From contig CALMMG010000001.1 in assembly GCA_937868185.1 (NCBI GenBank), forward strand, positions 27,585 through 91,584: DNA of 64,000 nucleotides, in the 5' to 3' direction. The position numbers were made by a program, and so were the translations under genes. Positions 3,702 to 25,503 of the stretch are shown in pieces (within the stretch, counting starts at the first letter, position 1; every line of letters begins with the position of its first letter). The notes under the pieces were generated by a model. It made no database searches. It was given only the letters and a program-made list of their open reading frames with translations, and had not been told where the DNA came from. The stretch comes from an uncultured Pseudomonadota bacterium. Lineage in GTDB: Bacteria; Desulfobacterota; Desulfobulbia; Desulfobulbales; Desulfurivibrionaceae.

Positions 3702-4358
3702 ATGAACGGTAAGATTTTCGCCATTGGCGACATCCACGGCTGCTCGGCAAAGCTGTCGCTGCTGCTCGAACGGCTTCCCTTTGACCCAAGGCACGACACC
3801 CTGGTTTTTCTCGGTGATTATTTAGACCGCGGACCGCAGGTCAAAGAGGTGCTGGATCAGATCTGCCGTTTGCGGCAGGAAGGAATCCGCATTGTGCCGC
3901 TCATGGGCAACCATGAATATCTGCTCCTTGAATACCATAAGACCGGGGATCAAGCCCTACTCCCCTACCTGCGAGGCCTTGGCCTGGAAAACACCCTGGA
4001 AAGCTACGGTGGCGCCAGTCTCTCCCAGCTCACCGCCCTTACTTTCATGCCTCCCGAGCACCGAGCCTTTCTCAATGCTCTGCTGCCCTACTGGGAAACA
4101 GAGGAGTATATCTTTGTCCATGCCGGCCTGCGGCAGAATCAGTCCTTGGCCGATCAGGATATTTCCGACCTCTGCGAGATTCGCGAACCGTTCCTCAGCA
4201 CCGAGATCAACTACGGTAAGCGGGTGATCTTCGGGCATAACGCCTTTGCCACCCCCCTCGTCACCCCATTTAGAATCGGTATCGACACCGGCGCAACCTA
4301 CGGCAATCTTCTCACCGCCGTGGAGCTGCCAAACCTCCGCTTTTATCACGCAGCCTGA
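3702..4358 (+). CDS. Metallophosphoesterase, PPP-family serine/threonine phosphatase-like
   Basis: GDIHGC, GDYLDRG, GNHE motifs. Confidence 0.92.
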   Translation: MNGKIFAIGDIHGCSAKLSLLLERLPFDPRHDTLVFLGDYLDRGPQVKEVLDQICRLRQEGIRIVPLMGNHEYLLLEYHKTGDQALLPYLRGLGLENTLESYGGASLSQLTALTFMPPEHRAFLNALLPYWETEEYIFVHAGLRQNQSLADQDISDLCEIREPFLSTEINYGKRVIFGHNAFATPLVTPFRIGIDTGATYGNLLTAVELPNLRFYHAA

Positions 4359-4371
4359 TCACTCAAACAGA

Positions 4372-6948
4372 TCACAACTCGAGACGATAATCCCCGGCTA
4401 AGAAACGGCGGGCAAGAATGGCCACCGTCTCATCGGAATCAAGGCGGGCATCGAGCTGCCGGGTATAACCGATCAATTGGCCGATTTGGTTGAGAATCTT
4501 CTCGATTTCCTCTCGACTCAGGCCGGAGAGGCGGCCGACCAGTAAATCGCCCTTGGCCTTGAGGGCAAAGCCATATTCCCCCAGCACCTGGGCCATGAGC
4601 GAGATGCGGCGGGAACGGTTGGTAATGGCGGCGGCTCCGCCCACAAAACGAAAATAGATATGGTTATTGCGCGGGGTATCGCTGCAATAGCAGTCCAGCA
4701 TATTGAAGTGATACCCAAAGCGCAGGCTCATGTTCACATACTCCTTGCTGGCCAAGGCTACATTATAACCGGCCAGCCCATCCCCACCGCCGCCAAGATC
4801 CGCAGCCCTGGTCATCCCGGAAAGAAAATCAGCGCCGCGCAGGGCTGCCCCCTCATTCTGCCAAACCCCAGGAGAAAGCATGCCCGCAAGCACTGCCCGC
4901 AGCGGCACGGAAGCCACCTGGGCAAACTCCGCCTCCTTTTTGCCTGTGCCGCTGCGCAAACCACCGCCCAGATCGATCACCAGGAGCTGAACCGGAATGG
5001 GTAGGGCCAGACGGTGCAAGGCGCTCTGCCCCCCAAAAAATCGACCCAGGCCACTCCCCTGCCGCTCGGCATTGGCAACCAGCGCCTGCACCGATTTTTC
5101 GTGCATGAAGCGGACGAGATCGTGCACGGTTTTGCATTTCTCCGGAGCAAATTCCTGTTCAAGGGAATTGACCAGGTTGAGCGGCGCGATATAGCGCATG
5201 ATATATTTCTGCCGCCTAAACTCATAGAGTTCCCGGAGCTTGGCCCCGGTCTGCCGCTCCTCCCGGAGTAGACTCTGGACAATCCCTTCATAAACGACAA
5301 ATTCACCGCTCTCCCCGGCTTGCAGGGTAATTTCCTGGCCATGCTTGAGGACGACGGTGGCTTGACCGGTGTTGACCACGGTGGGGATATTAAACTCGCG
5401 GCAGATGGAGGCCATGTGGCTGGTTGAGGCGCCGATATCGGTGATGATAGCGTGTAAAAAGGGAATGGCCTGCACAAAAATGGGGGAATCATGCCTGGCT
5501 ACCAGCACACACCCCTTGGGTATCTTTTCGAGTTCATCAAGATGTTGCAAAAGAAAGACCTTTCCCGCCGTAGCGCCCCGCTGCACCACGACCCCTTGGT
5601 TGCGCAGTAACACAGGATAACCTGTCGGCTCCGTCGGTTTGGGGCTTTGCGCCGTCTCCTCCGCCAATTCTTCCACCCGCAAGGCCCGAGCCTGGAGGAT
5701 ATAACACCGGCCAGCTTTATCAATGGCCCATTCGATATCCTGCGGGGTCTTGAAATGGACCTCAATGGCCTGGGCCTGTCGGGCAAGATCAAGAACCTCC
5801 GCCTCCTTGAGGCAGGCTATTTGCCGCCGATCCACCGGGGTTTCCAAGATCTCGATCCCTTCTTTGCCCCGGTTGACCACCATCTGCGCCTTGTTACCGA
5901 TCCGATGCTCAACAAGCCGCGGCGTTTCGCCCTTAGCCACCGTGTAGAGATCGGCATCAATCAAGCCATCCACCACCCCCTTGCCCAATCCCCATGCGGC
6001 ACTAATCGCCATCCTGGCCCGGTCCTTGCCCGAAGCAACGGTATAGATGACCCCGCTGGTTCTCGCCTCAATCATGGCTACGCAGCCCACCGCCATTCTC
6101 AGCTTCCCGAGTTCGTATCCAAGCTGACGCTGGTAGGCGGTGGCGTTGACCTGAAAAAGACTGGCCACCACCTCTTTATAGGCGACCAGAACCGCCTCAA
6201 TTCTGCAGGGCACATTGAGCACCGTCTCGAACTGACCAGCAAAGGAAAAGTCGCCGTCTTCCTCTTCGGCACTGCTACGGACCGCCAGGGTTGCACTCTC
6301 GCCCAACCGGGTCCGCATCTTTTCCAGAGCGACGGTAAGCGAAGCCCTGAAATCATCAGGAAAATCCCCGGCAAGAATGGCGGCGCGCAATTCGGCCAGG
6401 TCGGTATCATCGGCTTTGGCCAATCCGACCAGCCGCTCTTCCAGGCCATTGTGGCACAAAAAAGCGGCAAAGGCGGCAGTGGTGAGGGCAAAGGCTTCAG
6501 GAACCCGCAGATGCAGGCTGTTGGCCATTTCGGCCAGATGATAGTTCTTGCCGCCTACATCTTCCGCTATATCCCACGTGATCTCCGGGTAAAAAACCAA
6601 CAAAAGATTGGAAAGCGGTGCGGCGCTGGTCAGCATCCGCTGCACCAAGCCGTCTATGCGAGCCAGTGTTTTGTCGAGTTGCGGGTACTGGTGATCGGTG
6701 AGCTGATTGAAATTTCGGAGGGAATCAGAGATCGCCGTATGAAGATGGGCATAAGCCCCCTTAGTGTAATTGACATCAAAGAGATAGTCCCCACCGAGCT
6801 TTTCCCCCATCTCCGTCATGGCTTCCAGGGTACGATTGTTGCCGTCGAGCACCGCTTGGAAAGCGCGGAACCGCGCCGCCAGGTCGGACGCAGCAATACG
6901 GTCACGACCGAGAATCTCTTTGATTCTACGGAAAATATTTTTTTGCAT
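4372..6948 (-). CDS. PPDK_N/ATP-grasp + PEP-utiliser phosphohistidine domain protein with non-canonical C-terminal domain (paralogue D)
   Basis: VGGKNYHLAEMANSLHLRVPEAFALTT, LAVRSSAEEEDGDFSFAGQ, PQDIEWAID, IGASTSHMASICRE (His511), then HDLVRFMHE...LRFGYHFNMLDCYCSD...NNHIYFRFVGG C-terminal domain. Confidence 0.85.
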   Translation of the reverse strand: MQKNIFRRIKEILGRDRIAASDLAARFRAFQAVLDGNNRTLEAMTEMGEKLGGDYLFDVNYTKGAYAHLHTAISDSLRNFNQLTDHQYPQLDKTLARIDGLVQRMLTSAAPLSNLLLVFYPEITWDIAEDVGGKNYHLAEMANSLHLRVPEAFALTTAAFAAFLCHNGLEERLVGLAKADDTDLAELRAAILAGDFPDDFRASLTVALEKMRTRLGESATLAVRSSAEEEDGDFSFAGQFETVLNVPCRIEAVLVAYKEVVASLFQVNATAYQRQLGYELGKLRMAVGCVAMIEARTSGVIYTVASGKDRARMAISAAWGLGKGVVDGLIDADLYTVAKGETPRLVEHRIGNKAQMVVNRGKEGIEILETPVDRRQIACLKEAEVLDLARQAQAIEVHFKTPQDIEWAIDKAGRCYILQARALRVEELAEETAQSPKPTEPTGYPVLLRNQGVVVQRGATAGKVFLLQHLDELEKIPKGCVLVARHDSPIFVQAIPFLHAIITDIGASTSHMASICREFNIPTVVNTGQATVVLKHGQEITLQAGESGEFVVYEGIVQSLLREERQTGAKLRELYEFRRQKYIMRYIAPLNLVNSLEQEFAPEKCKTVHDLVRFMHEKSVQALVANAERQGSGLGRFFGGQSALHRLALPIPVQLLVIDLGGGLRSGTGKKEAEFAQVASVPLRAVLAGMLSPGVWQNEGAALRGADFLSGMTRAADLGGGGDGLAGYNVALASKEYVNMSLRFGYHFNMLDCYCSDTPRNNHIYFRFVGGAAAITNRSRRISLMAQVLGEYGFALKAKGDLLVGRLSGLSREEIEKILNQIGQLIGYTRQLDARLDSDETVAILARRFLAGDYRLEL

Positions 6949-6984
6949 TATAAGCGATTCCGCAGGAGGATTACCCTGCCGGGA

Positions 6985-7353
6985 TCATGCCTCCCCCAGA
7001 GCCCTTTTAACAGAGGTCTTCAATTCCTTGATCTTGACCGGCTTGGGGAAAAAATCGTGGACATCGTCCCGCAACGCCTCGATGGCCACATCCAGGTTGG
7101 CAAAGGCGGTGATCATGATCACCTTGATCCCGGGATACAGCTTCTTGACCGTGCGCAGCACTTCAAGGCCATCAATCCCCTTCATCTTCATGTCGGTTAC
7201 CACCACATCGAACCGCTTTTCCTGCAGCCGCGCCAAAGCAGACTCCCCGTCGAGAAAGGTTTCCACTTCATAACCATCCTGCTCGAAGGAGAGTTTTGCC
7301 ATATCCCCCACGATCTTCTCATCATCAATGAACATAATGCTATGCTTCGTCAT
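6985..7353 (-). CDS. Stand-alone receiver-domain response regulator
   Basis: IMFIDDEKIVGD, VVVTDMKMKGIDG, VIMITAF; no output domain. Confidence 0.92.
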   Translation of the reverse strand: MTKHSIMFIDDEKIVGDMAKLSFEQDGYEVETFLDGESALARLQEKRFDVVVTDMKMKGIDGLEVLRTVKKLYPGIKVIMITAFANLDVAIEALRDDVHDFFPKPVKIKELKTSVKRALGEA

Positions 7354-8761
7354 CCATACACCTCTTTAACTTTTTGCAACTGGGCAAGGTTATAATAAAA
7401 GTTGTGCCAATTCCTATCTGACTTGTCACCCGGATGTTTCCCTGGTGGTTTTTTATAATCCCGTAGCTGACCCACAGGCCGAGACCGGTGCCGCTCTCCC
7501 CTTTGGTGGTAAAAAACGGATCAAAGATGTGGTCGAGAAATTCCGGGGCAATACCCTTGCCCTTATCACCGATCTCGATCTCGATCTCGTCCTTATCGGG
7601 TACATAGCGGGAACCAATCCGCAGCTCGCCGCCCTTGTCCATGGCCTGAATGGCGTTGGTGGCCATATTAACCAGCACCTGTTGAATCTGGTGCTCGTCG
7701 ATATAAATATCCGGCAGATCCTCGGCCAGGGTGAGCTTGATTTTGATGTTGGAGATGTCGAGCATATTTTTTACCAAGGCCAGGATCTTCTGGATAACCT
7801 GGTTAGTGTCCGCCCTGGCCAGATGCTGCTCCTTGGGCTTGGCATAGTCAAGCAGGTTATGGATGATAACCCGCAACCGCTCGGTTTCCTCATCAACCCG
7901 CTCCATGAAACTGATCCGATCCTCCTTGCCGAGCCCATCATACACCTCGGCGTAGGTCTGGGCGAGCATGGAGATATTATTGAGGGGGTTATTGAGTTCA
8001 TGGGCCACGCCTGCCACCAACACCCCAATGGAGGCAAGCCGTTTGGACTGGACAATCTCTTTTTCCCGCCTCTGCAGTTCCTCGGCCATGGAGTTAATGG
8101 CGCTGATCACCGCGCCAATTTCGTCATTTGAGGGTTTCGCCTCGATCTTCCGGTAGTTGCCCTCGGAAATGGCGCGGGTAAGGTTGACCACTTTACGCAA
8201 CGACTGGCCGATATTGCGAACAATGAGATTGCTGAAGAGAAAGGCGAAAAGCACCACCGCCCAAAAAGAATAGAGCAGGATGTTCTTGGAACGAACAATG
8301 ATCGCGCCGATCCGGTCACTCTCAAGGGCGGTGATATCTTCGGAAAAAGTTTTCAGGCTCTGGCCCACCTCCCGCAGCTTTTTCTGTACCGTAGCATCCC
8401 GGTGCTTGGTATTGTTGATCGAATCAACCAGCTGCGCATAGGTATGGAGATGGCCTTGAAGGGTTGTGTACTTCTCGGAACCCACGGCCCGGATGATGTC
8501 AGGGCGAACCTGCAGCAGGGTTTCACTGGTCTGATTGATCCTGGTCCTGATGTTGTCCAGGGCGCTATCATCGCCATAGAGGAAATAATTTTTTTCCGCC
8601 AGCCGCATCTCAAGAAAATTGGCATTGAGCCCCTCGGCAATCACGGTAAAGCGAAACTTGGTTAGAATCTCATTGAGGTTTTGCAAGGCGAACATGCCGA
8701 TCAGGACAATGAGCACAATATGGACCGCATTGGAGAGATAGATTTTGTGTTCGATTTTCAT
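7340..8761 (-). CDS. Membrane sensor histidine kinase with HAMP
   Basis: Two TM segments, [11 protein letters not shown] sensor motif, [15 protein letters not shown]-box, [13 protein letters not shown]-box. Confidence 0.92.
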
Positions 8762-10026
8762 CCGATTTTCCCTCCCGCCAGCCCGGCGCTCCGGGTTTTA
8801 GGCAGTTCTGCCTGCTCCTTGCGAACCGGCAGATACCAAAGTCCGCCGTCAATGATCATCAACAACCCTGCCACAATCAACATCCCGTCAAAAAGGGTGC
8901 TGAACCCAAAGCCAAAGTAACCAATCAGGCCGATACCTATACTCACAAAGGAAACACCAGTGCGGATAAAGGCAAGACCGGTGCGGGCCCGCGAGTAAAT
9001 GGTCCGATAGCAGCCGGCGATGGTGCGCTGGGCCGCGAGCACGTTCCGCTCTCGGGCAAGGTGAGTGCGCTCCCGACTGGCTGGGGAGGGATAAAGAATG
9101 GTGCAGTAGTTCCCGAGCAGATCGCCAAGCCGAGCCAGCATGGTCTCCTTGGTTTTCTTTTCCATCCCAGCCTGCTCCAAGCTCTGATAGTTTTCAAGAA
9201 AGCTCAGGGTGGCGGCTGTCACCTCAACCAGGGTTTGATGCTGCGGCGGCGTCATCCGTGAGCGCCGCACCCGGAGGTAGGTAGGGAGAGCGCCAAAAAG
9301 AAGAAACAGACCGAGGGCCAAGATGCCATAGGCCAGAGAAGGATGGGCGGCAAACCGTTTGCTGTCCAAGAGTGTCCGGGAAATGGCGCCAAGGCCGAGC
9401 CCTGTCCGAGCAAAGGCTAGGGCGGTGCGAGCTCGGGCCATATCGGTGCGGTAACAGGCCAGCCGGGTTCGCCATTGGGCCATGGTATTGCGCCACAAGG
9501 CCAGACCGGTCCGCTCAGTGCCAATCAGGCATCCCACCTTATCATGGAGAAAATCCTGGATAAACCAAGAGATCTCATCGGGCAGGGCCACCCGAAACTC
9601 ATAGCGTCCCGGGCCCAAAATGCTCTCCACCTCCGCCCGCATGGCGGAGTCCGATGGATCGCGGGCCGCGATCACCACGGTGCCATCATCGTCCTTAATC
9701 ACCGGGAACCAGCCGCTTTGCGCCAACTTATTGCCCTGCAAACCGGTGAGCAATTCGGGCGGGATGGGCAACCGCTCATCATATTCGATAACTTCGCACT
9801 GGTAATAGGCGCTCAAGGCCACCAGCAGCGTCTCCCGAGGCACGCCGTACTCGGCCTGCAGAATCCGAGCCAGCGGTATCCCTCGCAGCACAGCGGCTTG
9901 GGCCGCATCGGCAAGCAACTCAGGCCCGAGCCTGTCGATCCCGGTAAAGGGCGACATCAGAGTCTCTGTCTCAACCTTGGTCATTGCTGAACACCACTTT
10001 CTGCCAAAATCTGGCTGGCACGCCAT
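8758..10026 (-). CDS. MshEN/GspE-N-like N-terminus followed by two DUF202-like R-T heptad blocks and TM segments (internal start possible at 9984)
   Basis: RGIPLARILQAEYGVPRETLLVALSAYYQCEVIEYD...ARDPSD region; RTGLALWRNTMAQWRTRLACYRTDMARARTALAFARTG and RTHLARERNVLAAQRTIAGCYRTIYSRARTGLAFIRTG blocks. Confidence 0.75.
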   Translation of the reverse strand: MACQPDFGRKWCSAMTKVETETLMSPFTGIDRLGPELLADAAQAAVLRGIPLARILQAEYGVPRETLLVALSAYYQCEVIEYDERLPIPPELLTGLQGNKLAQSGWFPVIKDDDGTVVIAARDPSDSAMRAEVESILGPGRYEFRVALPDEISWFIQDFLHDKVGCLIGTERTGLALWRNTMAQWRTRLACYRTDMARARTALAFARTGLGLGAISRTLLDSKRFAAHPSLAYGILALGLFLLFGALPTYLRVRRSRMTPPQHQTLVEVTAATLSFLENYQSLEQAGMEKKTKETMLARLGDLLGNYCTILYPSPASRERTHLARERNVLAAQRTIAGCYRTIYSRARTGLAFIRTGVSFVSIGIGLIGYFGFGFSTLFDGMLIVAGLLMIIDGGLWYLPVRKEQAELPKTRSAGLAGGKIG

Positions 10027-11500
10027 AATCGGGGATGGGAATCTCTATCTCGCCGTAACAGTAGGGGAACTGCCGGCGCATCTTCTCCGCCGGAATACTC
10101 CAAGCAAAGCCATCCGCCACCAAAAAAATACCAAACGTCATCATCGAATAACTGAACATGTTCCAGCTGAGGCCGCCCCCGTTGTCAAAGAAAAGCAGGA
10201 AGACAGCGCCGATCAGAAAAAGGCTCAAGCCGGTGCGGATAAAGGCAAAACCAGTCCGGGACCTGGCCATCACCGTCCGCAACCGGGCCATGACGTTACG
10301 CCGCTCGGCCAGAACCGTACGCTCCAAGGCAACACCAGTGGTGGCCCAAATGCCCGGCACATGAGAGCTACGAACAGGCAAGGTCATAGGATTCCTGCCC
10401 GGTCCGGGCAAGGCATAGCTGTGGGGGAAGTAATAATCCCAGATGGTGGACATCCTCGTCTTTTCCCGTACCGAAGCCAGCCCCTCCACCCCTGCCCTCC
10501 GACCACGGAAATACCAGAAAAATCCCTCCAGGGCCATAAGGGCACCGACCCCAATGAGGCCGAGGTCTAAGGCGACCCAGCGGCTGGCATGAAACTGGCG
10601 CAGCAGACCGAGGCCGAGACTAACAAAGGCAAAACCCGTCCGGGTAAAAGCCAGACCGGTACGGGCCTTGGCCATTCTGGTCCTGAAACAGGCGAGCACC
10701 GTGCGTTCCTCAGCCATATCGGTCCGGTCGCTGGCCAGATAACGCCGACGCATCACCGGCGACATGCTGGCCCACTCTGCCCGCAGTTGGGCCGCACCAG
10801 AAACAACACCACTGCGTCGGAATTCCGGGGCAATTTCCTCGTTATAGGCCTCAAGTACGCTGGTCCCGCCGGTGGCGCGTGTATCGACACAGGAAGGCAG
10901 GGTTGCGTAAATCGCCCGGGCCGGGAGATACCATTTGAGACCGTCATAGACCATGATCATGCCGCTGAACAGGAGGGGAACCTCCAGAAGCAGGTAATAA
11001 CCACCGCCGACCAGTCGAAGAAAAAGCAGGGCAATGGTGATAAAGGAAAGCCCGGTCCGGATGAAGGCCAGTCCGGTGCGGCTCTTGGCCAGCAGAGTCC
11101 GGTAATGGGCGAAAAGGGAGCGCCAGCCAGCCAGATAGGTACGGACCTTGGCCAAAGGGGTCCGCCCGGCAGTGGCAGGAAAGCCCGGATTAAGATCCCG
11201 GTTGTGCTCAATGATCCGGATGAGGTCGGCCGGTAAAGTGACCTGGAACTCAATCTCCCCCACCCCCAGAGTTTCGCGGACCTTGGTGGCCAAGTCTGGA
11301 CTGGGCGCAGTGGCGATCACCGTCGCCCGTCCATCAATAACCGCCCGCGGAAACCAGCCCTCCGCCAAGAGTTGCTCCATATCCAATCGCCACAGCAGAA
11401 ACTGAGGCCCGGTCACCGACTCTTGATACTCGACCCACGGACAACCATACTGCTCAGCAAGCGCAATCAACCTGTGCAATTTTTCAAGACCTGTATTCAT
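9971..11500 (-). CDS. Membrane protein with three DUF202-like R-T heptad blocks
   Basis: RTPLAKVRTYLAGWRSLFAHYRTLLAKSRTGLAFIRTG plus two further blocks, each followed by hydrophobic segments. Confidence 0.75.
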   Translation of the reverse strand: MNTGLEKLHRLIALAEQYGCPWVEYQESVTGPQFLLWRLDMEQLLAEGWFPRAVIDGRATVIATAPSPDLATKVRETLGVGEIEFQVTLPADLIRIIEHNRDLNPGFPATAGRTPLAKVRTYLAGWRSLFAHYRTLLAKSRTGLAFIRTGLSFITIALLFLRLVGGGYYLLLEVPLLFSGMIMVYDGLKWYLPARAIYATLPSCVDTRATGGTSVLEAYNEEIAPEFRRSGVVSGAAQLRAEWASMSPVMRRRYLASDRTDMAEERTVLACFRTRMAKARTGLAFTRTGFAFVSLGLGLLRQFHASRWVALDLGLIGVGALMALEGFFWYFRGRRAGVEGLASVREKTRMSTIWDYYFPHSYALPGPGRNPMTLPVRSSHVPGIWATTGVALERTVLAERRNVMARLRTVMARSRTGFAFIRTGLSLFLIGAVFLLFFDNGGGLSWNMFSYSMMTFGIFLVADGFAWSIPAEKMRRQFPYCYGEIEIPIPDYGVPARFWQKVVFSNDQG

Positions 11501-14082
11501 TCGGTTTTCGTCTCCAGGCGGCTCAAGGCATAATCGCCATCCAGAAAGGCCTGGGCAATTACGGGGATCATCTCGTCAGTGACCATGGCTGCATCCAATA
11601 GCCGGGTAAAGCCCAGGATCCTGCCCACCACCACCAGTTTCTCCTCAATGGCTGCCCTGGCTGCCCCTTGGAGCGAAGCATTGACCAGATCATCTTTAAC
11701 ATCGACAAGAAATCCATAATGCTCAAAGATCTCCCCAATGCACAAGGCCCGCCGCTGCCGCCGAGTAAGATTGGTGCCTCCGCCCTTGAAGCGGAACCGG
11801 ATATGATTGCTCCGCGCCTCCGGGGAGCAAACCGTGTCGATCATGATAAAATGAAAATCCATGCGTGCATTCATATTGCAATAATCCCGGCTGACCATGC
11901 AATAGTTGGGCATACCGATGGGCCGTTCCGATTTCTGGTCGGTAAGAAAGGAGGACATCACCGAACCCATGGGCGTCCCGCCCGGCGGCGGTCCCCAGTG
12001 CAGGCCTGGGGTGGTGATGCCGCGCCACAGGGCCTGAAAGGGACGGGAGATGACCATCTCCGGAGGGATTCTTCTTTTTTTCGATCCAGTCAAGGCCAGC
12101 CCCCCTCCCATGTCGATGACGCTGACAAAAAAAGGGACCGGCGAGTCAATGGCATGCACCGCGCTCAGGTTCCCCTCCAAAACCTCGTCACCGGCCTCAA
12201 ACATGGAGAGCACCGCCTTTTCATGGACAAAGCGGACGATATCGTGGAGTGACTTGCATTCCATGATAGAAAAGGTCGGCCCATAGGCATCGGTAAGATG
12301 CAGGGCCGTGATCAGCTCCCGAAGTTCCTGGTAGAGGGGGGGGAGACTCGTAGCCACGGACTGGGTCACTGGCGGACCTTTTTGCCAGGCCTCCAAAGCC
12401 GCGCTAATTTCCTCGGCGGTGGCCGCGTACACCCGGCCATGGCTGCCGTCCACCGTAAGCCACTGCCCCGGGCGCAACTTGTTCCCCGCATCCGCCAAGC
12501 CGCAAATCAAAGGGGTTCCCTGTTCGCGGGCCACACAGGCCAGGTGGTCGGCCGGGCTGCCGAGATTCACCAGCACCGCAGCCACCATCCCCAAGAGGTT
12601 TGCCGCATCGACAAAACTCTGGGGCATAACCAGCACCACCGGCTCTTGCGGAAGCGTTTCCAGATCCCGGCGATTTTTTACCAGAAGCACCCGGCCGGTG
12701 GCCCGCCCCCCCGAAGCCATGCTCCCTTGGGCAAGGGGCGGAGTTTTACCCTGCCATTCCTCCCCGCCCTGCACCCCCATGGTGGTAAGGGGCCTGACCT
12801 GGAGCAGAATCGCCTGTCCATCCTTATCCACAGCCCATTCAATGTCCTGCGGCATCCCCTCCTCTTCTTCCAGGGCCTTGCCCCAGTCGGCGAGAATCCG
12901 CAACTCTTCCTCGTTGAGCACCGGCTTTTGCCGGTCCTCCGGGGCAAGATCCTGCCAGTGCACCCCGCCTTCGGCATCGCTAACCAGAAACTTCTCCTTG
13001 TCGGCGATACTGGAGCGCTGCCAGTTCACAGCACCGTTGCGTCCGACCAGATAGATATCCGTTGCAGCACTGCCTGAAACCGCAGCCTCGCCAAGGCCCG
13101 GCACGGCGCTGACCAACATCATGCCGCTTTCCGGCTCCTGTGGGGAACGGGTGAGCAAGATGCCGGCGGCGCGGGCATCCACCATCTCAAGACAGAGCAC
13201 GGCCATCTCAAAACTTAAGGGATCAAGACCGGCGTGCAGCCGGTAGGCAAGGCTGCGCACGTTGAAATTGCTGGCCACTACCTCGGTGAAAGCCTTAAGA
13301 AACTGAGCTTCGTCCCGAACATTGAGTACCGAGCTGAACTGTCCGGCAAAGGAATGACGTTCACCATCCTCGCTGATACTGCTGCTCCGGACAGCCAACG
13401 CCTTACCACCTTGAAAAAAAGGCCGGGCATGGGCGAGAATCTCCTCAGCAAGGGTCGGGGGGAGCGGGGCATTCCGAATGAGTTCCTGCACCTGGTGCGC
13501 CGTTTCCGGGGGGATAGCCTTATCGGTCCCGGCCCCGTGTACCGCCAAAAGATGGACCAGCTGCAAGGAGAGTCCTTGGTGCTCCAAAAAGAAACGACAA
13601 CCGGCCAGGGTCACCACAAAACCGTCAGGAACCCGGAACCCTTTTTTCTTGAGCTCGGCCAGGGCTGCAGCCTTGTTGCCGGTCAGAGCCCGGTGTTCTG
13701 GCGCCAGCACGGCAAAAGACAAAGAAAAAGGAACCGCTTCAGGATGGGAAAGAGGCCCGAGCTTTTTCCGGATAGTACCGGCCAGGGCATACTGCACGCC
13801 CCGAAGCGGGCGGTATCGCCCCACGGCCAGATGCTCCAAACGGGCCACCATCTCCTCGGTTTCCTCGATCAGCTTTTCCGTAAGCCGGGCCAGGCCTGAC
13901 TGATCCCCCTGCAGGCGAAGGTGGATGCCGATCTCGGTGAGGCGGTCAACCGCACGGTTGTTGCTGGCTAGCAAGGAGCGAAATATTTGATAACGGGCGG
14001 TGAGGAGATCGTGCACCTCAGCCTGCCGCTGTTTCCGATTTGCCTGCAATCTGGCGTTCTGTTTTTTAAACCAGCGCAACAT
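11497..14082 (-). CDS. PPDK_N/ATP-grasp + phosphohistidine domain protein with non-canonical C-terminal domain (paralogue C)
   Basis: TGNKAAALAELKKKGFRVPDGFVVT, LAVRSSSISEDGERHSFAGQ, PQDIEWAVD, GSPADHLACVARE (His513), SNHIRFRFKGG. Confidence 0.85.
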   Translation of the reverse strand: MLRWFKKQNARLQANRKQRQAEVHDLLTARYQIFRSLLASNNRAVDRLTEIGIHLRLQGDQSGLARLTEKLIEETEEMVARLEHLAVGRYRPLRGVQYALAGTIRKKLGPLSHPEAVPFSLSFAVLAPEHRALTGNKAAALAELKKKGFRVPDGFVVTLAGCRFFLEHQGLSLQLVHLLAVHGAGTDKAIPPETAHQVQELIRNAPLPPTLAEEILAHARPFFQGGKALAVRSSSISEDGERHSFAGQFSSVLNVRDEAQFLKAFTEVVASNFNVRSLAYRLHAGLDPLSFEMAVLCLEMVDARAAGILLTRSPQEPESGMMLVSAVPGLGEAAVSGSAATDIYLVGRNGAVNWQRSSIADKEKFLVSDAEGGVHWQDLAPEDRQKPVLNEEELRILADWGKALEEEEGMPQDIEWAVDKDGQAILLQVRPLTTMGVQGGEEWQGKTPPLAQGSMASGGRATGRVLLVKNRRDLETLPQEPVVLVMPQSFVDAANLLGMVAAVLVNLGSPADHLACVAREQGTPLICGLADAGNKLRPGQWLTVDGSHGRVYAATAEEISAALEAWQKGPPVTQSVATSLPPLYQELRELITALHLTDAYGPTFSIMECKSLHDIVRFVHEKAVLSMFEAGDEVLEGNLSAVHAIDSPVPFFVSVIDMGGGLALTGSKKRRIPPEMVISRPFQALWRGITTPGLHWGPPPGGTPMGSVMSSFLTDQKSERPIGMPNYCMVSRDYCNMNARMDFHFIMIDTVCSPEARSNHIRFRFKGGGTNLTRRQRRALCIGEIFEHYGFLVDVKDDLVNASLQGAARAAIEEKLVVVGRILGFTRLLDAAMVTDEMIPVIAQAFLDGDYALSRLETKTE

Positions 14083-14088
14083 CGAAAC

Positions 14089-16644
14089 TCACCTTTCACT
14101 CCCGGTCTGGTCCTGCTTGACCGAGGCGAGGAACTGTTCGAAAAACCGTTCAATGGCCGTCTCATCGCGCATCTGCACATCAAGCTGACGGGTAAAGGAA
14201 ATCAGCTCGCCCAACCGGGTAAGAACCCTTTCCATTCGCGGGACGTCGAGGTTTCTGGCCTTAGCGATCACCAGATCTCCCATGCGATCCACCTTGAAAT
14301 AGAGGCCGGTCAGAATAGCGCTGATCAGCCGGGCGCGTCGCTTCCGTTTTGTCGGGTTGGCAATGCCGCCGACAAAACGGAAATAGATATAATTATTATC
14401 CGGCTCTGGAGAGAAGAAGGCATCCACCACATTGAAGTGATAGCCGAGGCGCAGGCAGAGATTGCAGTAATTATCAGCGATAATCGCGAGATTGTCGCCG
14501 GGGTAGGAGGACCGGTTGGCCAGCACGACCAGCGGCTTGCCAATCCCGGCAAGGATTTCCCTCAACCCCAGGACAACCGGCTCCCGCACCTGCGCCGCCT
14601 CGCTGAAAAACCCGGCAAGAATGGGCGTAAGCGGCCGGCAATTCAGCATCTCCAGGGTAAGCTCCTCGCCTTTTTTGGGTATTTTCCCCTTGATGCCCGA
14701 GCCGAGATCAATGACCCGTAATTTGAGCGGGGCCGGCAACCGCACCGGATAACTCGGCAGCCCTGCCCGACCGGGGTACTCTTCATGGAAATGGATGAGG
14801 CCGTCGATGGCCTTTTCGTGGCTGAAGCGCAGGATATCATGAAAGGTCCGGCAATTTTCCGGAACAAAGTCGGCGGCTGCGGGGTTGGCCAGGGTGATCG
14901 GCGCTATCCAGCGCAGAAGTCTCCGGAGAATCCGCAGCTCCGGGGCGCTGCGGTAAGAGAAATCTTCCGTTGCCTGCAGGCGCAGCAAGCCTTTGATGAT
15001 GCCCCGGTATACCTTCTTGTTTTCAACATCGATGGTTATTTCCTCACCCTCGGGCAGCAGGCTGGTGGCCTCGCCGGTCCCGAAAAGGGCTGGGGTCCGG
15101 TATTCGCGGGCAATGGTGGCCAGGTGGCCAGTGGGCCCGCCAATGTCCGTAATGATGGCGGAAGCCTTCCAGACAATGGGGCTGAGCCGGGGATCGGGAA
15201 ACCGGGCTACGGCAACAGCGCCCATGGGGAACTGCTCGGGGTCGGTATCCTGGTCCACATGCACGACCAGGCCGGCACCAATACCGAGCTGGGCGATCTG
15301 CCCTCTGTCTTCCATGATCGGTGCGGAGGCCTGCAATTCAGCGGCAATCTCGCTCGGCAGGGGCAAGGGCTTAGTCGGCAGGGTAAACGGCCTGCTCTGC
15401 AGAATGACCAGCTCACTGCCCAGGGCCCATTCGATGTCCTGTGGGCCATCAAAGGCTTTTTCCAGAAGAAGGGCCTGCTCGGCCAATTTTCTGATTTCCT
15501 CCGGGGTAAGCGAGCTTGAGCCGCGCCGCAACCCGTTGGCCAGAAAAGCCAGCGGCTCTTCCCCACCCGCCGTGGCCATTGGAGCCATTGGGGTAAGCAG
15601 CTCGCTTTCCAGAAGAGGAAAAGGCCAGGTCCGGCTTACGGTGAAATGGTCTGCGGTGGTGCGGCCGGCAACCAAGCCCTTGGCCGCGCCCCGGACCGAG
15701 GTGATGAGCAGGCTATTTTCTTCCCGGGCATCGGGGCTGCGGCTGTAGGTTACCCCGGCAACCCGGGAAGGACTCATCACCTGGACCCCGACCGCCATGG
15801 GAACGGCATGGTTATCGCTACCAGAACCGAGGTATTCCAGGGCGGCAAGGGAAAAACGGGAGGCTAGCACCTGGAGGTACGCGGCCAGTACTGCGGGAAG
15901 CTTGGGAGCGACCTCAAGAACCGAGCGGAATTGCCCAGCAAAACTCCTGGTTTCCCCATCTTCGCCCACTGCGCTGCTGCGCACGGCCAGAACCGCATCA
16001 GGCCCACACCCTGCCAGAAGCTGAGCCATCTCCTCCTCTATGGCCACAGCGAGACCGTGGGGCAGACGGGCCTTGCTGAAAAGCAGCTCCATTTGTTGCA
16101 CCTGCTCTTTTTTTGGCATCCCAGCGGCGCAGACCGCATCTATCTGGGCAAAAAGATCGTTTTCCTGCATGAAAAGCCGATATGCCGCCACGGTAATAGC
16201 AAAACCAGCGGGAACCGGAAGATGGAGATGGTTGTGAATCTCGCTGAGGGTGGCGTTCTTACTGCCGACCAACCCGTCAAAATCGCTAGTTATCACGGCG
16301 TAAGGCAGGGTAAGACTTTGGTCGTAGGGCCCGGCATAGCCCACGGCCAGCACGGACAGCTTTCCGGCAATCTCCTCATAACGGTCATAGAGGCCGAGAT
16401 AGCCATTGCCGGTCAGATTGTTGAGACAATAGATGACCTCGCGCACCAGATCGTTGAGCTCGCTCACCACCTCGCCCAGGAATTTTTTGTCAAAAACATA
16501 TTCGCCGGCCAGGGCGCTTTCCATGTAAGAAATCTTCTCAAGCACCTCGTTGTTCAAGGAAAGCAGCCGGCGGAAGAGCTGGAAGATCGCGGCAAACGCG
16601 GCGGTTTTTTCGATACTTTCTGGCAGATCTGGGAGAGAACTCAT
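14089..16644 (-). CDS. PPDK_N/ATP-grasp + phosphohistidine domain protein with non-canonical C-terminal domain (paralogue B)
   Basis: VGSKNATLSEIHNHLHLPVPAGFAIT, LAVRSSAVGEDGETRSFAGQ, PQDIEWALG, GGPTGHLATIARE (His507), NNYIYFRFVGG. Confidence 0.85.
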   Translation of the reverse strand: MSSLPDLPESIEKTAAFAAIFQLFRRLLSLNNEVLEKISYMESALAGEYVFDKKFLGEVVSELNDLVREVIYCLNNLTGNGYLGLYDRYEEIAGKLSVLAVGYAGPYDQSLTLPYAVITSDFDGLVGSKNATLSEIHNHLHLPVPAGFAITVAAYRLFMQENDLFAQIDAVCAAGMPKKEQVQQMELLFSKARLPHGLAVAIEEEMAQLLAGCGPDAVLAVRSSAVGEDGETRSFAGQFRSVLEVAPKLPAVLAAYLQVLASRFSLAALEYLGSGSDNHAVPMAVGVQVMSPSRVAGVTYSRSPDAREENSLLITSVRGAAKGLVAGRTTADHFTVSRTWPFPLLESELLTPMAPMATAGGEEPLAFLANGLRRGSSSLTPEEIRKLAEQALLLEKAFDGPQDIEWALGSELVILQSRPFTLPTKPLPLPSEIAAELQASAPIMEDRGQIAQLGIGAGLVVHVDQDTDPEQFPMGAVAVARFPDPRLSPIVWKASAIITDIGGPTGHLATIAREYRTPALFGTGEATSLLPEGEEITIDVENKKVYRGIIKGLLRLQATEDFSYRSAPELRILRRLLRWIAPITLANPAAADFVPENCRTFHDILRFSHEKAIDGLIHFHEEYPGRAGLPSYPVRLPAPLKLRVIDLGSGIKGKIPKKGEELTLEMLNCRPLTPILAGFFSEAAQVREPVVLGLREILAGIGKPLVVLANRSSYPGDNLAIIADNYCNLCLRLGYHFNVVDAFFSPEPDNNYIYFRFVGGIANPTKRKRRARLISAILTGLYFKVDRMGDLVIAKARNLDVPRMERVLTRLGELISFTRQLDVQMRDETAIERFFEQFLASVKQDQTGSER

Positions 16645-18155
16645 ACGTCAGTCCCTATGCGGGGCAGTCTGATCCGGAAGGTCGTACCCTTGCCCTTTTC
16701 GCTCTCCACCTCTATCTCGCCGTGGTGGTCCTTAACAATGGCGTAACTCAGCGACAGGCCAAGGCCGGTGCCTTCATTCTTGGTGGTGAAAAAAGGATCG
16801 AAGATATGGGCCAGGGTCTCCGGAGCCATGCCAGCGCCGGTATCTCTTACTACAATAATCGCTTCTTTCCCGGCCATCTGGACGACAAGATCAAGGCGAC
16901 CTTCAGGGGGCATGGCCTGGACCGCATTGAGCATCAAGTTGACCAGCACCTGCTGCAAGTGGTTGGGGTTGCCGTTGACCAGCACCGACCGATCGGGATG
17001 GTCGTAATGATACACGATGCCACCTAGGCGGAACTGATTCTTCACCAGGGTAATGGAGCTTTCCACCAGCGCAACAAGATCCACCGGCTCCATGGTATTG
17101 GATTTGCTGGTCCGAGAAAACTCAAGCAGGTGGTGTACCACCTCCCTGGCTCTGTCCGACTGAACGAGGATATCCCGCACCATGTCCATTCGCTCACTGC
17201 AAGCCAGATTTGGCAGATCTTCCAGCAGCACCTCGGCAGTGAGCGAGATATTATTAAGCGGATTGTTGATCTCGTGGGCGATGCCCGCCGTTACCTTGCC
17301 GATAGCCGCCAATTTTTCCGACTGAACAAGCTGAACCTGTTTGGTATTGAGGGCCTTGAGCATCAGATTCAGCGAGTTGACCAGCTCGATTCCCTCCACC
17401 GAGCACCTGATCTCCTCCCCCACCGGAATCGAGTTCATCTCCCCCTGCATGATCCTGGCCGAGGCCACACGGATGGCGCTGAGAGGACGCAGGATCCAAC
17501 GCATCATGTAAAAGATGAGGACGGCGCCAAGCATCACAGCCAAGGCCAGGATCAGAACCGCTGATTTCTGGTATCGGGCAACCTCACGCTCCACCTGAAG
17601 CCGAGCCCGGGCGTCCATGTCAAAAATAATTTTGGTAAGATCCTGACCATGTTTGCGCAGGGCACTCTCCAGGGATTTTTTCCTGAGTGGCGCAAGCTCT
17701 GCCTCCATCAATTGTCGGGAAAGGAATTCGTACCGACCAAGCTCCTTGTCATAAAAGGATTGCAGCTCGTCCTGGTTACCAGGCAAGGTCGCCTTTACTC
17801 CGACAATCGCGGCCCTAACCTGATCGACATAGTCAAGGGCGCTTAACAGATCCTTTTTATCATTGAACAAAAGATAGTTCTTTTCGTAGCGTCTGACCTC
17901 AAGAACGTTCTGGTTCAGCTCATAGAACGACTCGATGATGCGGATCTTGTCCTCTATGCGCCAGAGGGCATAGCTGGCAGTCAGCGTGGCCACGATACCG
18001 AGACCGGCGACAATGCCGATGGTCATCAGGAGCTTGCCCTTGATGGAACGGATTGCCGGAAACAAGAAGCGGCAGGGCAAGAGCTTTGAGGAGGGGATAT
18101 CTTCCAGCCTGCCCGACGGCTCTTGGGCAACAGGAGGGATGCGGGAGCCGTCCAT
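16641..18155 (-). CDS. Membrane sensor histidine kinase
   Basis: RRYEKNYLLFNDKKD sensor motif, [15 protein letters not shown]-box, GTGLGLSLSYAI G-box; HAMP-like linker. Confidence 0.92.
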   Translation of the reverse strand: MDGSRIPPVAQEPSGRLEDIPSSKLLPCRFLFPAIRSIKGKLLMTIGIVAGLGIVATLTASYALWRIEDKIRIIESFYELNQNVLEVRRYEKNYLLFNDKKDLLSALDYVDQVRAAIVGVKATLPGNQDELQSFYDKELGRYEFLSRQLMEAELAPLRKKSLESALRKHGQDLTKIIFDMDARARLQVEREVARYQKSAVLILALAVMLGAVLIFYMMRWILRPLSAIRVASARIMQGEMNSIPVGEEIRCSVEGIELVNSLNLMLKALNTKQVQLVQSEKLAAIGKVTAGIAHEINNPLNNISLTAEVLLEDLPNLACSERMDMVRDILVQSDRAREVVHHLLEFSRTSKSNTMEPVDLVALVESSITLVKNQFRLGGIVYHYDHPDRSVLVNGNPNHLQQVLVNLMLNAVQAMPPEGRLDLVVQMAGKEAIIVVRDTGAGMAPETLAHIFDPFFTTKNEGTGLGLSLSYAIVKDHHGEIEVESEKGKGTTFRIRLPRIGTDV

Positions 18156-18157
18156 GG

Positions 18158-18556
18158 TTATTTTCCTTGGTTCTGCGTCTCGATGGCACGGAAGATCACC
18201 TGCTTCAGCTCATCCAGGCGAAAAGGCTTGGCAAGAAAGGCAAAAACCCCCTCCTGTTGCGCCAATTCGGCGGTATCCGGCGAGGCATATCCGGTGATGA
18301 TGATCACTTGGGTGGCAGGATTATGGCGCCGGACCCGTTTCAACACCTCGATACCGTCGATGCCCTCCATTTTCAGGTCGGTTACCACAACATCAAAAGG
18401 CCTTTCAGCTATGGCGTCCAGGGCAGTGGCCGAGTCGGTGTAGGTCTCTATCTCAAAGCCGATTTTGGTGAAAACCTGATGAAGACGCTTGCCCACAATG
18501 GGTTCGTCATCCACAACCAGCAAACGGCGAACGACACCGGGATTATTCTCATTCAA
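18158..18556 (-). CDS. Stand-alone receiver-domain response regulator
   Basis: LLVVDDEPIVGKRL, VVVTDLKMEGIDG, VIIITGYAS; no output domain. Confidence 0.92.
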   Translation of the reverse strand: MNENNPGVVRRLLVVDDEPIVGKRLHQVFTKIGFEIETYTDSATALDAIAERPFDVVVTDLKMEGIDGIEVLKRVRRHNPATQVIIITGYASPDTAELAQQEGVFAFLAKPFRLDELKQVIFRAIETQNQGK

Positions 18557-18590
18557 TGGACTACCTCCTACAATCTTAACTGTTCATGCC

Positions 18591-21185
18591 TTAACGGCCC
18601 TGCCTTGCGACAATGCCGTAATCACCCATGAGAAATGCTTCGACATATTGGGCGACTGTTTCATCATCCGTCATCTGTACATCCAGTTGCCGGGTAAAAC
18701 CAATCAGCCGACCAAGAATATCCAGGGTTCGTTCCATTTCCGGCTGCGCCAGATTGCTGGTCCGGGCGATGACCAGATCCCCCTTGGTCTGGATGCTAAA
18801 ATCAAAGGCCTCCAGAATCGAGGCGATGAGGGTCGCCCGCCGTGAACGCTTGGCAATATCGGTGGCCCCGCCCAAAAATCGGAAATAGATATGATTGTCC
18901 CGCTCCACATCGTGGCAAAAGGCATCGATGATATTGAAGTGATACCCGAACCGGAAACAGAGATTGACATACGTTTCGCTGATAATAGCAATGTTGTGCC
19001 CGGTGTACTGCCCGGAAAGAGTATCCTGCGGAGTGGTCATCATGCTGTGCATCATGTCTCGAAAACTCACCGACATGGCCTCCTGATGCCAGGCCCCGGG
19101 GAAAAGCATCCCCTGGAGAATAGCCCGAAAGGGGATCGAATGGATGGCGGAAAAGGGGATCTGGTCCCGCGGGGCGTCCGGAGCAAAACCGCCGCCGATG
19201 TCGATGGCAAGGATACCTGCCTGAATAGGCAGGTCCAGCCGTCTAGCCAGGCCGCCGGGAAAACAATGGTCGTCACGCCCCAACTCCACCAGATGCAGCA
19301 CTGCGGTTTCATGAATAAAGCGAAGCACATCGTGGAAGGTTCGGCAACCTTCTGGCCTGAATTCCTGCATCAGCGGGTCAACCAGATTCAAACGGGAAAC
19401 CTCCCGGAGAATACGGCGCAGCATTCGGAACTCCGGGGCCATATGCAGATCCATGGTGGTGGTCGCCTGATAGGTGAGGAGTTCCACTACCCTGCCCCGG
19501 TAAATCCGGCGATCTTCAGCATCCACAGTTATTTCCTCACCGGGAGCTACCTTGGCCATGATATCTGGCACCCCGACCAGGCAGGGAACCCGCAACTCGC
19601 GGCAGAGGGTGGCCATGTGACTTGCCGGGGTACCCACCTCGGTGACAATGGCGGCGGCCCGATGCATGACCTGGACAAATTGGGAGGAATCGCGGTGGCT
19701 GATGAGCACCGCACCCTCGGGAAAATCCTTGAGATCGGCAAGGGTCTCCACCCAGAAAGCCGGGCCGGCACCGATGCCCTGCTGTGCCACCCGTCCTGCA
19801 TCCACCGCGATAAGTTCATACCCTTCGAGTTTTTCGGAAAGCTTTGGTTTTCCACGTTCGCTCTCCGTGATCAACAGAGGTCTGGACTGTAGGATACAAA
19901 GAGCACCCTGGGAGTCCAGAGTCCATTCGATGTCTTGGGGCCGCTTAAAAAACGTTTCCAGATGAATGGCAACTCCGGCGAGTTCCAAAAGGGTTTGCTC
20001 ATCAAGACAGGGAGCCTCGACCTGCCCGTTCGCCACCGCTTGCATCGCAAGCCCGCCATCGGCCTCACCTGTTGGCAGCAGGGCTTCATGTTTAGGCGCG
20101 ATTACCCGTTCAAGAACCTGCGGCGGCTCACCCTTACTGATCCGGAAAAAATCCGTGGGCACCTGTCCCTCAACCACCGCCTGCCCCTGTCCCAAGGCAC
20201 CAACCACTACCATGCTCTGCGAACCGGGCTCCATTGGATCAATGGAATAGATGATACCGCTGGCCATGGCCCGAATCATGCGCTGGCAACAGGCGGCAAT
20301 GGACATGGGACTGCCTTCGGGAAAAACCTGCCGCCGATAACGAATGGCCTTGGAGCCAAAGAGACTGGCCGCCACCAGCAGATAGGCGCGATACACCGCC
20401 TCGGCCTGGGGAGGAACCTGCAATTCGGAATGAAACTGCCCGGCAAAGGAAAAATCCATGTCCTCTTCCTGGGCACTGCTGCGGACCGCAAGAAAAAGAG
20501 GGAGTTCGTTATTGGCCGCAAGCCGCGTAATAGACTCGGTCAGCATCTCAAGCAAACCCAAGGGCGGCTCGGCGCGGAGGACCTTCTCCCGGAGAAGACG
20601 GCGCAGCGCCTCAAGCTCCTCTTCATCGGGAAGATGTTCGGAAAGCAGCAGCTCAAAACGGTCAAACTCCGGCCGCAGCCCGTTCAGGTCGAGGAGATCG
20701 TGAAACAGCCTGGTGGTGATGACAAACCCTTCCGGCACCCGAACCTTGGGGTTGTGGAGCAGCTCGGAAAGATGCGCGGCCTTGCCGCCCACCAAAGGCC
20801 AATGACGGGTTTCGACCTCCGCAAGCCAGAGCAGAGCCGGGCCTTCCCGGTCATCGCGTTTGTTGAGGATTGCCCGGACCCGTTCTTCCATGGGGGTAAA
20901 CACCTCATGCAGGGCCACACACTGATCTTGGGTCAGGATATTGATTGCATCAAGGGCGCGGCGCATAGCTGCGATCATCTCCTCAACCGTAGCTTCCACA
21001 TAACGGAGATCAAAAAGATACTCGCCGCTCAGCTTCTCGCCCATGTCAGCGATGATCTCAAGGGCCAGATTGTTTGCCTTGAGTACCTCGCGAAACTGGG
21101 AGAACACAAGGGGCAGAGGACGGCAGACCTTGGGCGTGAACCAGCTGTGGGCGGAAAAACCTTTCAGGAAATCACGGAGGGCCAT
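18591..21185 (-). CDS. PPDK_N/ATP-grasp + phosphohistidine domain protein with non-canonical C-terminal domain (paralogue A)
   Basis: VGGKAAHLSELLHNPKVRVPEGFVIT, LAVRSSAQEEDMDFSFAGQ, PQDIEWTLD, GTPASHMATLCRE (His523), DNHIYFRFLGG, LGRLIGFTRQLD. Confidence 0.85.
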   Translation of the reverse strand: MALRDFLKGFSAHSWFTPKVCRPLPLVFSQFREVLKANNLALEIIADMGEKLSGEYLFDLRYVEATVEEMIAAMRRALDAINILTQDQCVALHEVFTPMEERVRAILNKRDDREGPALLWLAEVETRHWPLVGGKAAHLSELLHNPKVRVPEGFVITTRLFHDLLDLNGLRPEFDRFELLLSEHLPDEEELEALRRLLREKVLRAEPPLGLLEMLTESITRLAANNELPLFLAVRSSAQEEDMDFSFAGQFHSELQVPPQAEAVYRAYLLVAASLFGSKAIRYRRQVFPEGSPMSIAACCQRMIRAMASGIIYSIDPMEPGSQSMVVVGALGQGQAVVEGQVPTDFFRISKGEPPQVLERVIAPKHEALLPTGEADGGLAMQAVANGQVEAPCLDEQTLLELAGVAIHLETFFKRPQDIEWTLDSQGALCILQSRPLLITESERGKPKLSEKLEGYELIAVDAGRVAQQGIGAGPAFWVETLADLKDFPEGAVLISHRDSSQFVQVMHRAAAIVTEVGTPASHMATLCRELRVPCLVGVPDIMAKVAPGEEITVDAEDRRIYRGRVVELLTYQATTTMDLHMAPEFRMLRRILREVSRLNLVDPLMQEFRPEGCRTFHDVLRFIHETAVLHLVELGRDDHCFPGGLARRLDLPIQAGILAIDIGGGFAPDAPRDQIPFSAIHSIPFRAILQGMLFPGAWHQEAMSVSFRDMMHSMMTTPQDTLSGQYTGHNIAIISETYVNLCFRFGYHFNIIDAFCHDVERDNHIYFRFLGGATDIAKRSRRATLIASILEAFDFSIQTKGDLVIARTSNLAQPEMERTLDILGRLIGFTRQLDVQMTDDETVAQYVEAFLMGDYGIVARQGR

Positions 21186-21277: not shown

Positions 21278-22072
21278 TCAGTGGCTGCCGCCGCCTTTCT
21301 TGAAGATTGCACCCACACCCAAGCCGGCGAGCAGAGCGACAATAACAGCCATTATGCCATACAATCCAGCTTGGTCAAAGGCCATTTTTGATAGGGCCGC
21401 AACCAGCCCTGTACTCTTGACTTCAATATTGGCCGAAGCCCGCTCCACCACCTTGCCGTTCCTGACGGCAAGCACATTCACCGTATATATTCCCGGAGGC
21501 GCCTGATACGGCCAGGCAACGTCCACCTTATAGGTGTTGCCATTTTCCCCATGCTGGCGGACAATGGCCCCCTCCCGCATGTCATAGACATTCTCATGCT
21601 TCTTGAATTTGAGATACTCGTCAAACCATTTTCCGTCCGCAGGATTCCCCTTGCTGTCTTCAATCCGGATATGCCCGCGCAGGGCGTCAAAGCCGAGCAG
21701 ATTCTGGTTGAGTTCCGCCGCGTCCAGAATACGGGTCAGCTCGGCGGTGCTGCTTAACAGATACACGCGAGGTGCATCCTTAAATTCAAGGGACCCCTTT
21801 TTCATCCAGACCAGACCGCCTACTTTTTCATAATTTTTCAAAGCAGTATCAACAGGTTCGCTGGTGATGGTGACGACCAGGTCATCGGTGCTCGCGCTCT
21901 GGCCGGTGATTGCCAATTGCGCCCCATGATAGGTAAAGGTTATGGGAATATTGTCCGGAGTGACCGAGCAGGTAAGCGCTTGGGCCGCAGGAACAGAGAC
22001 GGTGGCAAGGCCGAACAGCACCAAAGCCATGGCCATAAAAAATCGAGTGGAATTCATGATGGCACGTTTCAT
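21278..22072 (-). CDS. TIGR02186-like (Alph_Pro_TM-type) membrane-anchored protein
   Basis: Signal peptide, TCSVTPDNIPITFTYHGAQLAITGQ, C-terminal TM; start placed at MKRAIMNSTRF, close to the upstream stop. Confidence 0.7.
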   Translation of the reverse strand: MKRAIMNSTRFFMAMALVLFGLATVSVPAAQALTCSVTPDNIPITFTYHGAQLAITGQSASTDDLVVTITSEPVDTALKNYEKVGGLVWMKKGSLEFKDAPRVYLLSSTAELTRILDAAELNQNLLGFDALRGHIRIEDSKGNPADGKWFDEYLKFKKHENVYDMREGAIVRQHGENGNTYKVDVAWPYQAPPGIYTVNVLAVRNGKVVERASANIEVKSTGLVAALSKMAFDQAGLYGIMAVIVALLAGLGVGAIFKKGGGSH

Positions 22073-22073
22073 T

Positions 22074-23620: not shown

Positions 23621-23636
23621 AGCATTAAGCGTGCCA
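23621..23636 (-). promoter_or_regulatory. Sigma-54 (-24/-12) promoter
   Basis: Minus strand TGGCACGCTTAATGCT matches TGGCACGNNNNTTGCW at all but one constrained position; GG-N10-GC preserved; upstream of the 23573 start. Confidence 0.75.
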
Positions 23637-25189: not shown

Positions 25190-25503
25190 GGCAAAAAATA
25201 ATCCTAAAAAATGTTGGAGGCCGAAAGTCACAGGATATGTGGCAAGAAAGATATCTCCCCTGGCAGCTGCATCCTCCAAGAATTTTTTTCCGAAGAGGAC
25301 CACGCCAACCTAGCATGCTCCCCATCACCTTGCAAATTGATTTTTTTCATCCAAGTCATGGCAACCAGCGAATATCAATCCCCAAAACTCTGTGGAAAAA
25401 AACCTTTCCAGTCCTAGGGGGTTGACGATCGCTCCTCAAAGGTCCATAGTCTATCACTATACATGCGCACAACCGCAACTAAAAATACGAGCCCTCTGAA
25501 CCC

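Follow-up and report, generated by a model that had tools for sequence, protein, structure and literature searches.

Four paralogous dikinases encoded in a 64,000-nucleotide stretch of DNA from an uncultured member of the Desulfurivibrionaceae (hereafter, the window) carry, in place of the PEP/pyruvate barrel of PEP synthase, a conserved and hitherto undescribed domain that makes up their C-terminal ~300 residues. The gene cluster to which they belong is almost entirely restricted to bacteria that use sulfur compounds for respiration. As a tentative reading, we propose that these dikinases are gated by receivers and use ATP to phosphorylate an acceptor, probably a protein, thereby controlling a sulfur-oxyanion permease, with a phosphatase as the reset.

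Dikinases A (4372–6948; 858 aa), B (11497–14082; 861 aa), C (14089–16644; 851 aa) and D (18591–21185; 864 aa) are all encoded on the reverse strand. In dikinase A, an N-terminal helical domain (residues 1–120) is followed by the ATP-grasp domain PPDK_N (130–432), the swivel domain (476–544) with the phospho-accepting His511, and the new C-terminal domain (about 560–858). A first-pass annotation of the sequence had already described four paralogues with PPDK_N, a swivel histidine and no barrel; this description is real and, if anything, understated in extent, and the motifs and histidine positions quoted in it (523 in D, 507 in C, 513 in B and 511 in A) are exact. The profile searches it suggested identified PPDK_N (E 3e-56 to 4e-76) and the PEP-utilizers mobile domain (E 1e-12 to 5e-18) in each of A–D, and no PEP-utilizers_C domain (PF02896) in any of them at E ≤ 0.1. 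PEP-utilizers_C was recovered at 9.6e-57 from the PEP synthase of the same genome (contig C164), so the search was able to detect the barrel. The swivel phosphohistidine (511 in A) is invariant in 110/110 full-length relatives, as are the ATP-grasp residues K134, R224, E230, D231, E406, Q419 and R421 (A numbering). The proposal that these proteins are dikinases for an undefined acceptor is thus supported: they lack the barrel, and their ATP-grasp and phosphohistidine sites are intact.

The best NCBIfam matches of the PPDK_N and swivel domains are PEP synthase models, as would be expected if A–D were merely diverged PEP synthases or PPDKs. However, the alignment to these models ends at the swivel domain, PEP-utilizers_C is missing despite a control at 1e-56, and the structural models contain no TIM barrel, which makes this explanation extremely improbable. 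For the N-terminal helical domain, an HPt reading was rejected, as there is no conserved histidine there. A fifth dikinase of the host genome (contig C119, L013:8321–10879) shares the C-terminal domain but is more divergent; it adjoins two TauE genes, two lone receivers and one kinase. Another kind of PPDK_N protein, of ~1420 residues, is encoded on contig C169 (L015:4802–9118) and has PPDK_N and swivel domains at its C-terminus, preceded by ~950 unmatched residues.

The C-terminal domain of A (the last ~300 residues; 4375–5274, reverse strand), used as the seed of the family, is homologous to those of the other paralogues, with 27–44% identity to A across A–D and the C119 copy. Residues H609, D610, R613, H616, E617, D659, H747, N762, R781, R830 and D833 (A numbering) are invariant in 110/110 relatives from all clades. 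No sequence match to the domain was found in Pfam, NCBIfam or PDB, nor in PHROGs and a scan of viral contigs; matches on plasmids all stop close to the swivel domain, as ordinary ppsA genes would. An AlphaFold model of the domain from A (80 sequences, pLDDT 83) has an α+β fold, and a model of a Desulfovibrionaceae relative (92 sequences, pLDDT 88) has the same α+β order. Neither contains a TIM barrel. At E ≤ 0.001, neither model matched a fold in PDB, and the recurrent matches to 2plg, DR_1245, ExsC and arginine kinase were too weak for use. Internal stops were reported in some Desulfovibrionaceae matches; the ORFs retrieved from these are complete (853–856 aa), so no recoding is involved. Nitrospirota dikinases of about 1060 aa (L147:4797–7988, L149:7257–10454, L151:564–3806 and L159:7980–11162) have ~200 extra C-terminal residues with a weak match to the lectin-like GH59 C-terminal domain, and several of them adjoin PP2C or LMW phosphatases.

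In PpsA, PPDK and rifampin phosphotransferase (RPH), ATP loads the swivel histidine, and an acceptor at a third domain then takes the phosphate. By analogy, the new domain would be the third, acceptor domain of A–D. The paralogues share with PpsA and PPDK the order of PPDK_N and the swivel histidine domain and the catalytic residues, but differ from them in the replacement of the PF02896 barrel with an unrelated α+β domain, in the extra N-terminal helical domain and in the lone receiver alongside. RPH (PMC4844700) and the prodigiosin ligases PigC and RedH also combine an ATP-grasp, a phosphohistidine swivel domain and a third, acceptor-specific domain. In RPH, the acceptor domain lies between the ATP-grasp and the C-terminal swivel domain, whereas in A–D it follows the swivel domain. 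Only the ATP-grasp and swivel domains of A–D match, with the swivel domain in the middle of the protein and about 300 unmatched residues after it, and no sequence similarity was found between the acceptor domains of A–D and RPH. A functional analogy can be drawn with PTS Enzyme I, in which a swivel histidine of the same family feeds phosphate to proteins that drive and regulate transport, although Enzyme I employs PEP and a PEP barrel, whereas A–D would employ ATP via PPDK_N.

The main rival to a protein acceptor is a metabolic dikinase, the C-terminal domain of which would hold a small molecule, either a sulfur compound or an anion imported by the permease, for phosphorylation by the enzyme, much as RPH and similar PpsA-like enzymes treat their substrates; the two-component proteins would then regulate the enzyme, and the phosphatase would act on the product or be incidental. 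The characterized relatives PpsA, PPDK, RPH and GWD all, to our knowledge, act on a small molecule or a sugar polymer, the best NCBIfam matches of A–D are metabolic enzymes, and the eleven invariant polar residues, among them three histidines and three arginines, resemble a small-anion active site. Nevertheless, the enzyme is usually accompanied by output-less receivers, four unrelated phosphatase families, mostly protein phosphatases, have been recruited beside it, and paralogues with a dead ATP-grasp retain the C-terminal site, so that we consider a metabolic role rather unlikely.

In a tree of the 110 relatives, the A-, B-, C- and D-types form separate clades that recur at the same locus positions in other genomes, so the four paralogues are old and have been kept, rather than being recent duplicates. 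The first-pass annotation had offered different acceptors or a heteromeric complex as explanations for the four copies. Different acceptors are unlikely because the C-terminal site has the same invariant residues in all paralogue clades. Dead-ATP-grasp paralogues (L128:5390–8137, L133:9819–12203, L140:8142–10634 and L144:953–3256) are encoded beside intact copies and keep 13–15 of 16 C-terminal residues in three cases and 10 of 16 in a 767-aa ORF. Their retention of the C-terminal site next to intact paralogues suggests a complex with work shared between subunits, and we favor, from these comparisons, a heteromeric complex of A–D.

The genes from D to A are arranged head to tail on the reverse strand; neighboring genes overlap slightly or are separated by at most a few dozen bases (the M2/M1 overlap, as listed, is 56 bp). 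Besides the dikinases, this segment encodes the lone receiver RR2 (18158–18556), the membrane histidine kinase HK2 (16641–18155), the membrane proteins M2 (9971–11500) and M1 (8758–10026), the membrane histidine kinase HK1 (7340–8761; HAMP, HisKA and HATPase domains) and the lone receiver RR1 (6985–7353). Domain searches recovered both histidine kinases and both output-less receivers of the first-pass annotation, and its two "R-T heptad" membrane proteins each combine DUF202 with MshEN and have two (M1) and three (M2) heptad blocks. R[TN] pairs at an exact spacing of 7 occur 10 and 11 times in the two DUF202 proteins, compared with means of 0.02–0.03 in shuffled sequences. The membrane domain of yeast VTC belongs to the DUF202 family, and one could imagine that the cluster synthesizes or transports polyphosphate or a similar polyanion along a path lined by the R-T heptads. 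The DUF202 domains and their basic heptads are real, but minimal clusters (TauE, dikinase and receiver) and the Desulfovibrionaceae version have no DUF202 gene beside the dikinase, and TauE and the receiver are the more constant partners, leaving a role in polyanion metabolism very improbable.

Upstream of D, the same strand encodes an Alph_Pro_TM (PF09608) protein (21278–22150; E 4e-49), the true start of which is probably 3′ of the listed TTG, and a TauE/SafE-family permease (22074–23003; E 4e-48), both conserved in 44 loci. These are preceded by u3 (23025–23573, likely true start 23573; about 183 aa), which has no Pfam match and has a homologue at the matching position in orthologous loci. 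About 50 bp upstream of u3 is a sigma-54 promoter, TGGCACGCTTAATGC (23622–23636, reverse strand). A sigma-54 element is present at the matching position in 9/10 orthologous loci, compared with 3% of random segments; a window-wide scan at one mismatch was not significant alone. The adjacent gene, for an NtrC-type sigma-54 response regulator with receiver, AAA and Fis HTH domains (23825–25303, reverse strand; conserved in 32 loci), encodes the likely activator of the operon. The core at 4372–21185 that the first-pass annotation delimited stands as to the genes listed, while the unit goes upstream to about 23636 and downstream to a phosphatase gene. That annotation mentioned neither the permease and the phosphatase nor sigma-54 control, and it did not connect the genes with dissimilatory sulfur metabolism or with the Desulfovibrio phenotype. 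Just upstream of the NtrC gene, the window encodes a 203-aa receiver protein and a receiver-PAS-histidine kinase hybrid (26146–28883), which are also found at the same position in several orthologous loci, and at 28944–30752 a CLC-type chloride channel with CBS domains, near the anion-permease cluster described here.

The downstream gene, for a calcineurin-like (PPP-type) phosphatase (3702–4358, forward strand), is convergent with dikinase A, 13–14 bp from its end, and a homologue adjoins the dikinase in 19 further loci. Four unrelated phosphatase families flank dikinases: PPP-type in Desulfobulbales, dual-specificity in Desulfovibrionaceae, and low-molecular-weight and PP2C in Nitrospirota. 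Across 130 loci (2.19 Mb), 38/38 homologues of the four cluster phosphatases lie ≤430 bp from a dikinase; orthology makes many of these dependent on one another, but the four families count as independent. Only 8 Metallophos matches occur in the complete host genome. Because protein phosphatases have been recruited repeatedly, the acceptor is probably a protein.

Gene order was compared across 80 loci of named genomes; wherever a locus bore the NCBI label "Myxococcota", which is an artefact of the name "Deltaproteobacteria bacterium", the label was disregarded. The combination of kinase, receiver and dikinase recurs in Desulfobacterota and Nitrospirota, in most loci together with a TauE permease. 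In Desulfobulbales, the order is NtrC, u3, TauE, Alph_Pro_TM, D, receiver, kinase, C, B, two DUF202 genes, kinase, receiver and A. In Nitrospirota, TauE and Alph_Pro_TM are followed by universal stress proteins, two DUF202 genes, kinase, receiver and A; minimal loci consist of TauE, Alph_Pro_TM, dikinase and receiver. Kinase, receiver and DUF202 genes flank the dikinase in two actinobacterial loci, and a gene of the SLC13-type sulfate symporter family, assigned by Pfam in one case and by sequence likeness in the other, lies near two Nitrospirota loci. The suggestion that the two-component proteins act as regulators is a fair one, given that an output-less receiver and a kinase adjoin the dikinase in loci of three phyla and that receiver and dikinase mutants of Desulfovibrio share a phenotype (see below).

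The domain is present in 145/395 Desulfobacterota and 73/246 Nitrospirota genomes, and only 4 strong matches were found in the phylum to which the actinobacterial carrier belongs (396 genomes), the phylum names in these counts being inferred in part from named loci of the same group. Among the carriers, dsrA is encoded by 142/145 Desulfobacterota (Fisher p 1e-57; 83/84 when counted by genus, p 3e-36) and 67/73 Nitrospirota (Fisher p 1e-21), in counts made by genome and, for Desulfobacterota, by genus and not phylogeny-corrected below or above genus. The domain is lacking in 53 dsrA-containing genomes of Desulfobacterota and 48 of Nitrospirota, or between a quarter and two fifths of all those with dsrA. 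dsrB is encoded by two actinobacterial carriers, and the host genome has both dsrA and dsrB. Two nearly complete Desulfobacterota genomes with 4–7 domain copies and neither dsrA nor dsrB (G287 and G300) are informative exceptions.

ATP sulfurylase generates PPi and APS reductase generates AMP, and PpsA/PPDK chemistry involves ATP, AMP and either Pi or PPi. This chemistry and the tight co-occurrence with dsrA would suit a dikinase that serves as an AMP/PPi or energy-charge sensor or timer near equilibrium with sulfate activation, regulating transport proteins rather than phosphorylating them. Such a sensor accounts neither for the phosphatases nor for a new, acceptor-like domain that has an invariant site of its own, and we regard it as improbable.

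A link to a phenotype comes from Desulfovibrionaceae-like loci (family f41, a family name assigned from synteny and size), which encode TauE, in some cases a small protein, a phosphonate-type binding protein, a kinase, a 119-aa receiver, a dikinase with the new C-terminal domain and a ~360-aa dual-specificity phosphatase. The dikinase-phosphatase pair is present in 13/13 loci, the binding protein, kinase and receiver as well in 12/13, and TauE in addition in 9/13. Their gene order and sizes match the "nitrate cluster" DVU0251–DVU0245 / Dde_0597–Dde_0605, with a receiver gene of 360 bp and a phosphatase gene of 1110 bp (Korte et al. 2014, PMC4001038), a study that covers neither the new domain nor how widely it occurs. 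From synteny and the reported domains, we infer that DVU0246 belongs to the new dikinase family; at 744 aa it is shorter than most relatives (815–876 aa), perhaps because of a start-codon difference. The nitrate cluster has in common with that of the window a permease, a kinase, a lone receiver, a phosphatase and a PPDK-like protein for which no C-terminal barrel has been reported. It differs by its single dikinase (the window has four), by its PtxB-like binding protein and by its lack of DUF202 proteins, whereas the window, with its TauE permease, kinases, receivers and dikinases, has a different phosphatase and no binding protein. A second locus type in some Desulfovibrionaceae-like genomes (L127 and L135–L138) has TauE divergent from a large sigma-54 activator, followed by a dikinase; L127 also encodes a DUF4881 protein and an MFS transporter, and its activator includes a Cache-like stretch.

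In both D. vulgaris and D. alaskensis, insertions in the permease, binding protein, receiver and dikinase genes increased fitness on nitrate; individual nitrate-cluster mutants showed no nitrite resistance (PMC4001038). As the G20 mutants were mildly sick on thiosulfate, the authors proposed a leaky thiosulfate transporter (PMC4001038). Phosphatase mutants behaved oppositely, being nitrate-sensitive in DvH (−6.04) and resistant in G20 (+2.08) (PMC4001038), so the role of the phosphatase is unsettled. Loss of the dikinase has the same effect as loss of the permease, and this is the best hint that the dikinase serves the permease, with polarity a possible cause of the shared phenotype.

In the receiver-gated scheme that we prefer, a membrane kinase would sense a signal and phosphorylate the lone receiver, which would switch the dikinase, perhaps by docking on the N-terminal helical domain. 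The dikinase would pass phosphate from ATP to the swivel histidine (511 in A) and then to the acceptor, most likely one of the system's own proteins, held by the C-terminal domain. Phosphotransfer would turn on the TauE-type (elsewhere perhaps SLC13-type) oxyanion permease of dissimilatory sulfur metabolism, which may carry thiosulfate or sulfite-like anions, and the neighboring phosphatase would reset the system. The four paralogues would be ancient co-operating subunits with the same chemistry. This scheme is limited in that the dikinase mutants could act via polarity or lost permease expression, and in that a site rich in invariant charged residues suits a small anionic substrate equally well. 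It is possible, though we hold this more loosely, that the system amounts to a new phosphorelay, in which receiver-switched dikinases phosphorylate proteins from ATP, by way of the swivel histidine and the new acceptor domain, to control sulfur-oxyanion uptake in sulfur-respiring bacteria and the four unrelated phosphatase families act as off-switch.

PpsA-like dikinases and the nitrate cluster, as a genetic entity, were known before; the acceptor domain and the multi-paralogue version were hitherto undescribed, and there is a fair chance that the chemistry or the signaling role is new as well. In roughly one third of the sampled Desulfobacterota and Nitrospirota, the domain is joined to phosphotransfer machinery that is well understood, and nearly all of these carriers are dsrA-positive. 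The poorly annotated nitrate cluster of the Desulfovibrio model sulfate reducers gains a testable mechanism for why loss of a PEP-synthase-like protein, a receiver or a permease leads to nitrate resistance. If the acceptor is a protein, these dikinases would represent a route of protein phosphorylation apart from the histidine-kinase, Hanks-type and PTS systems.
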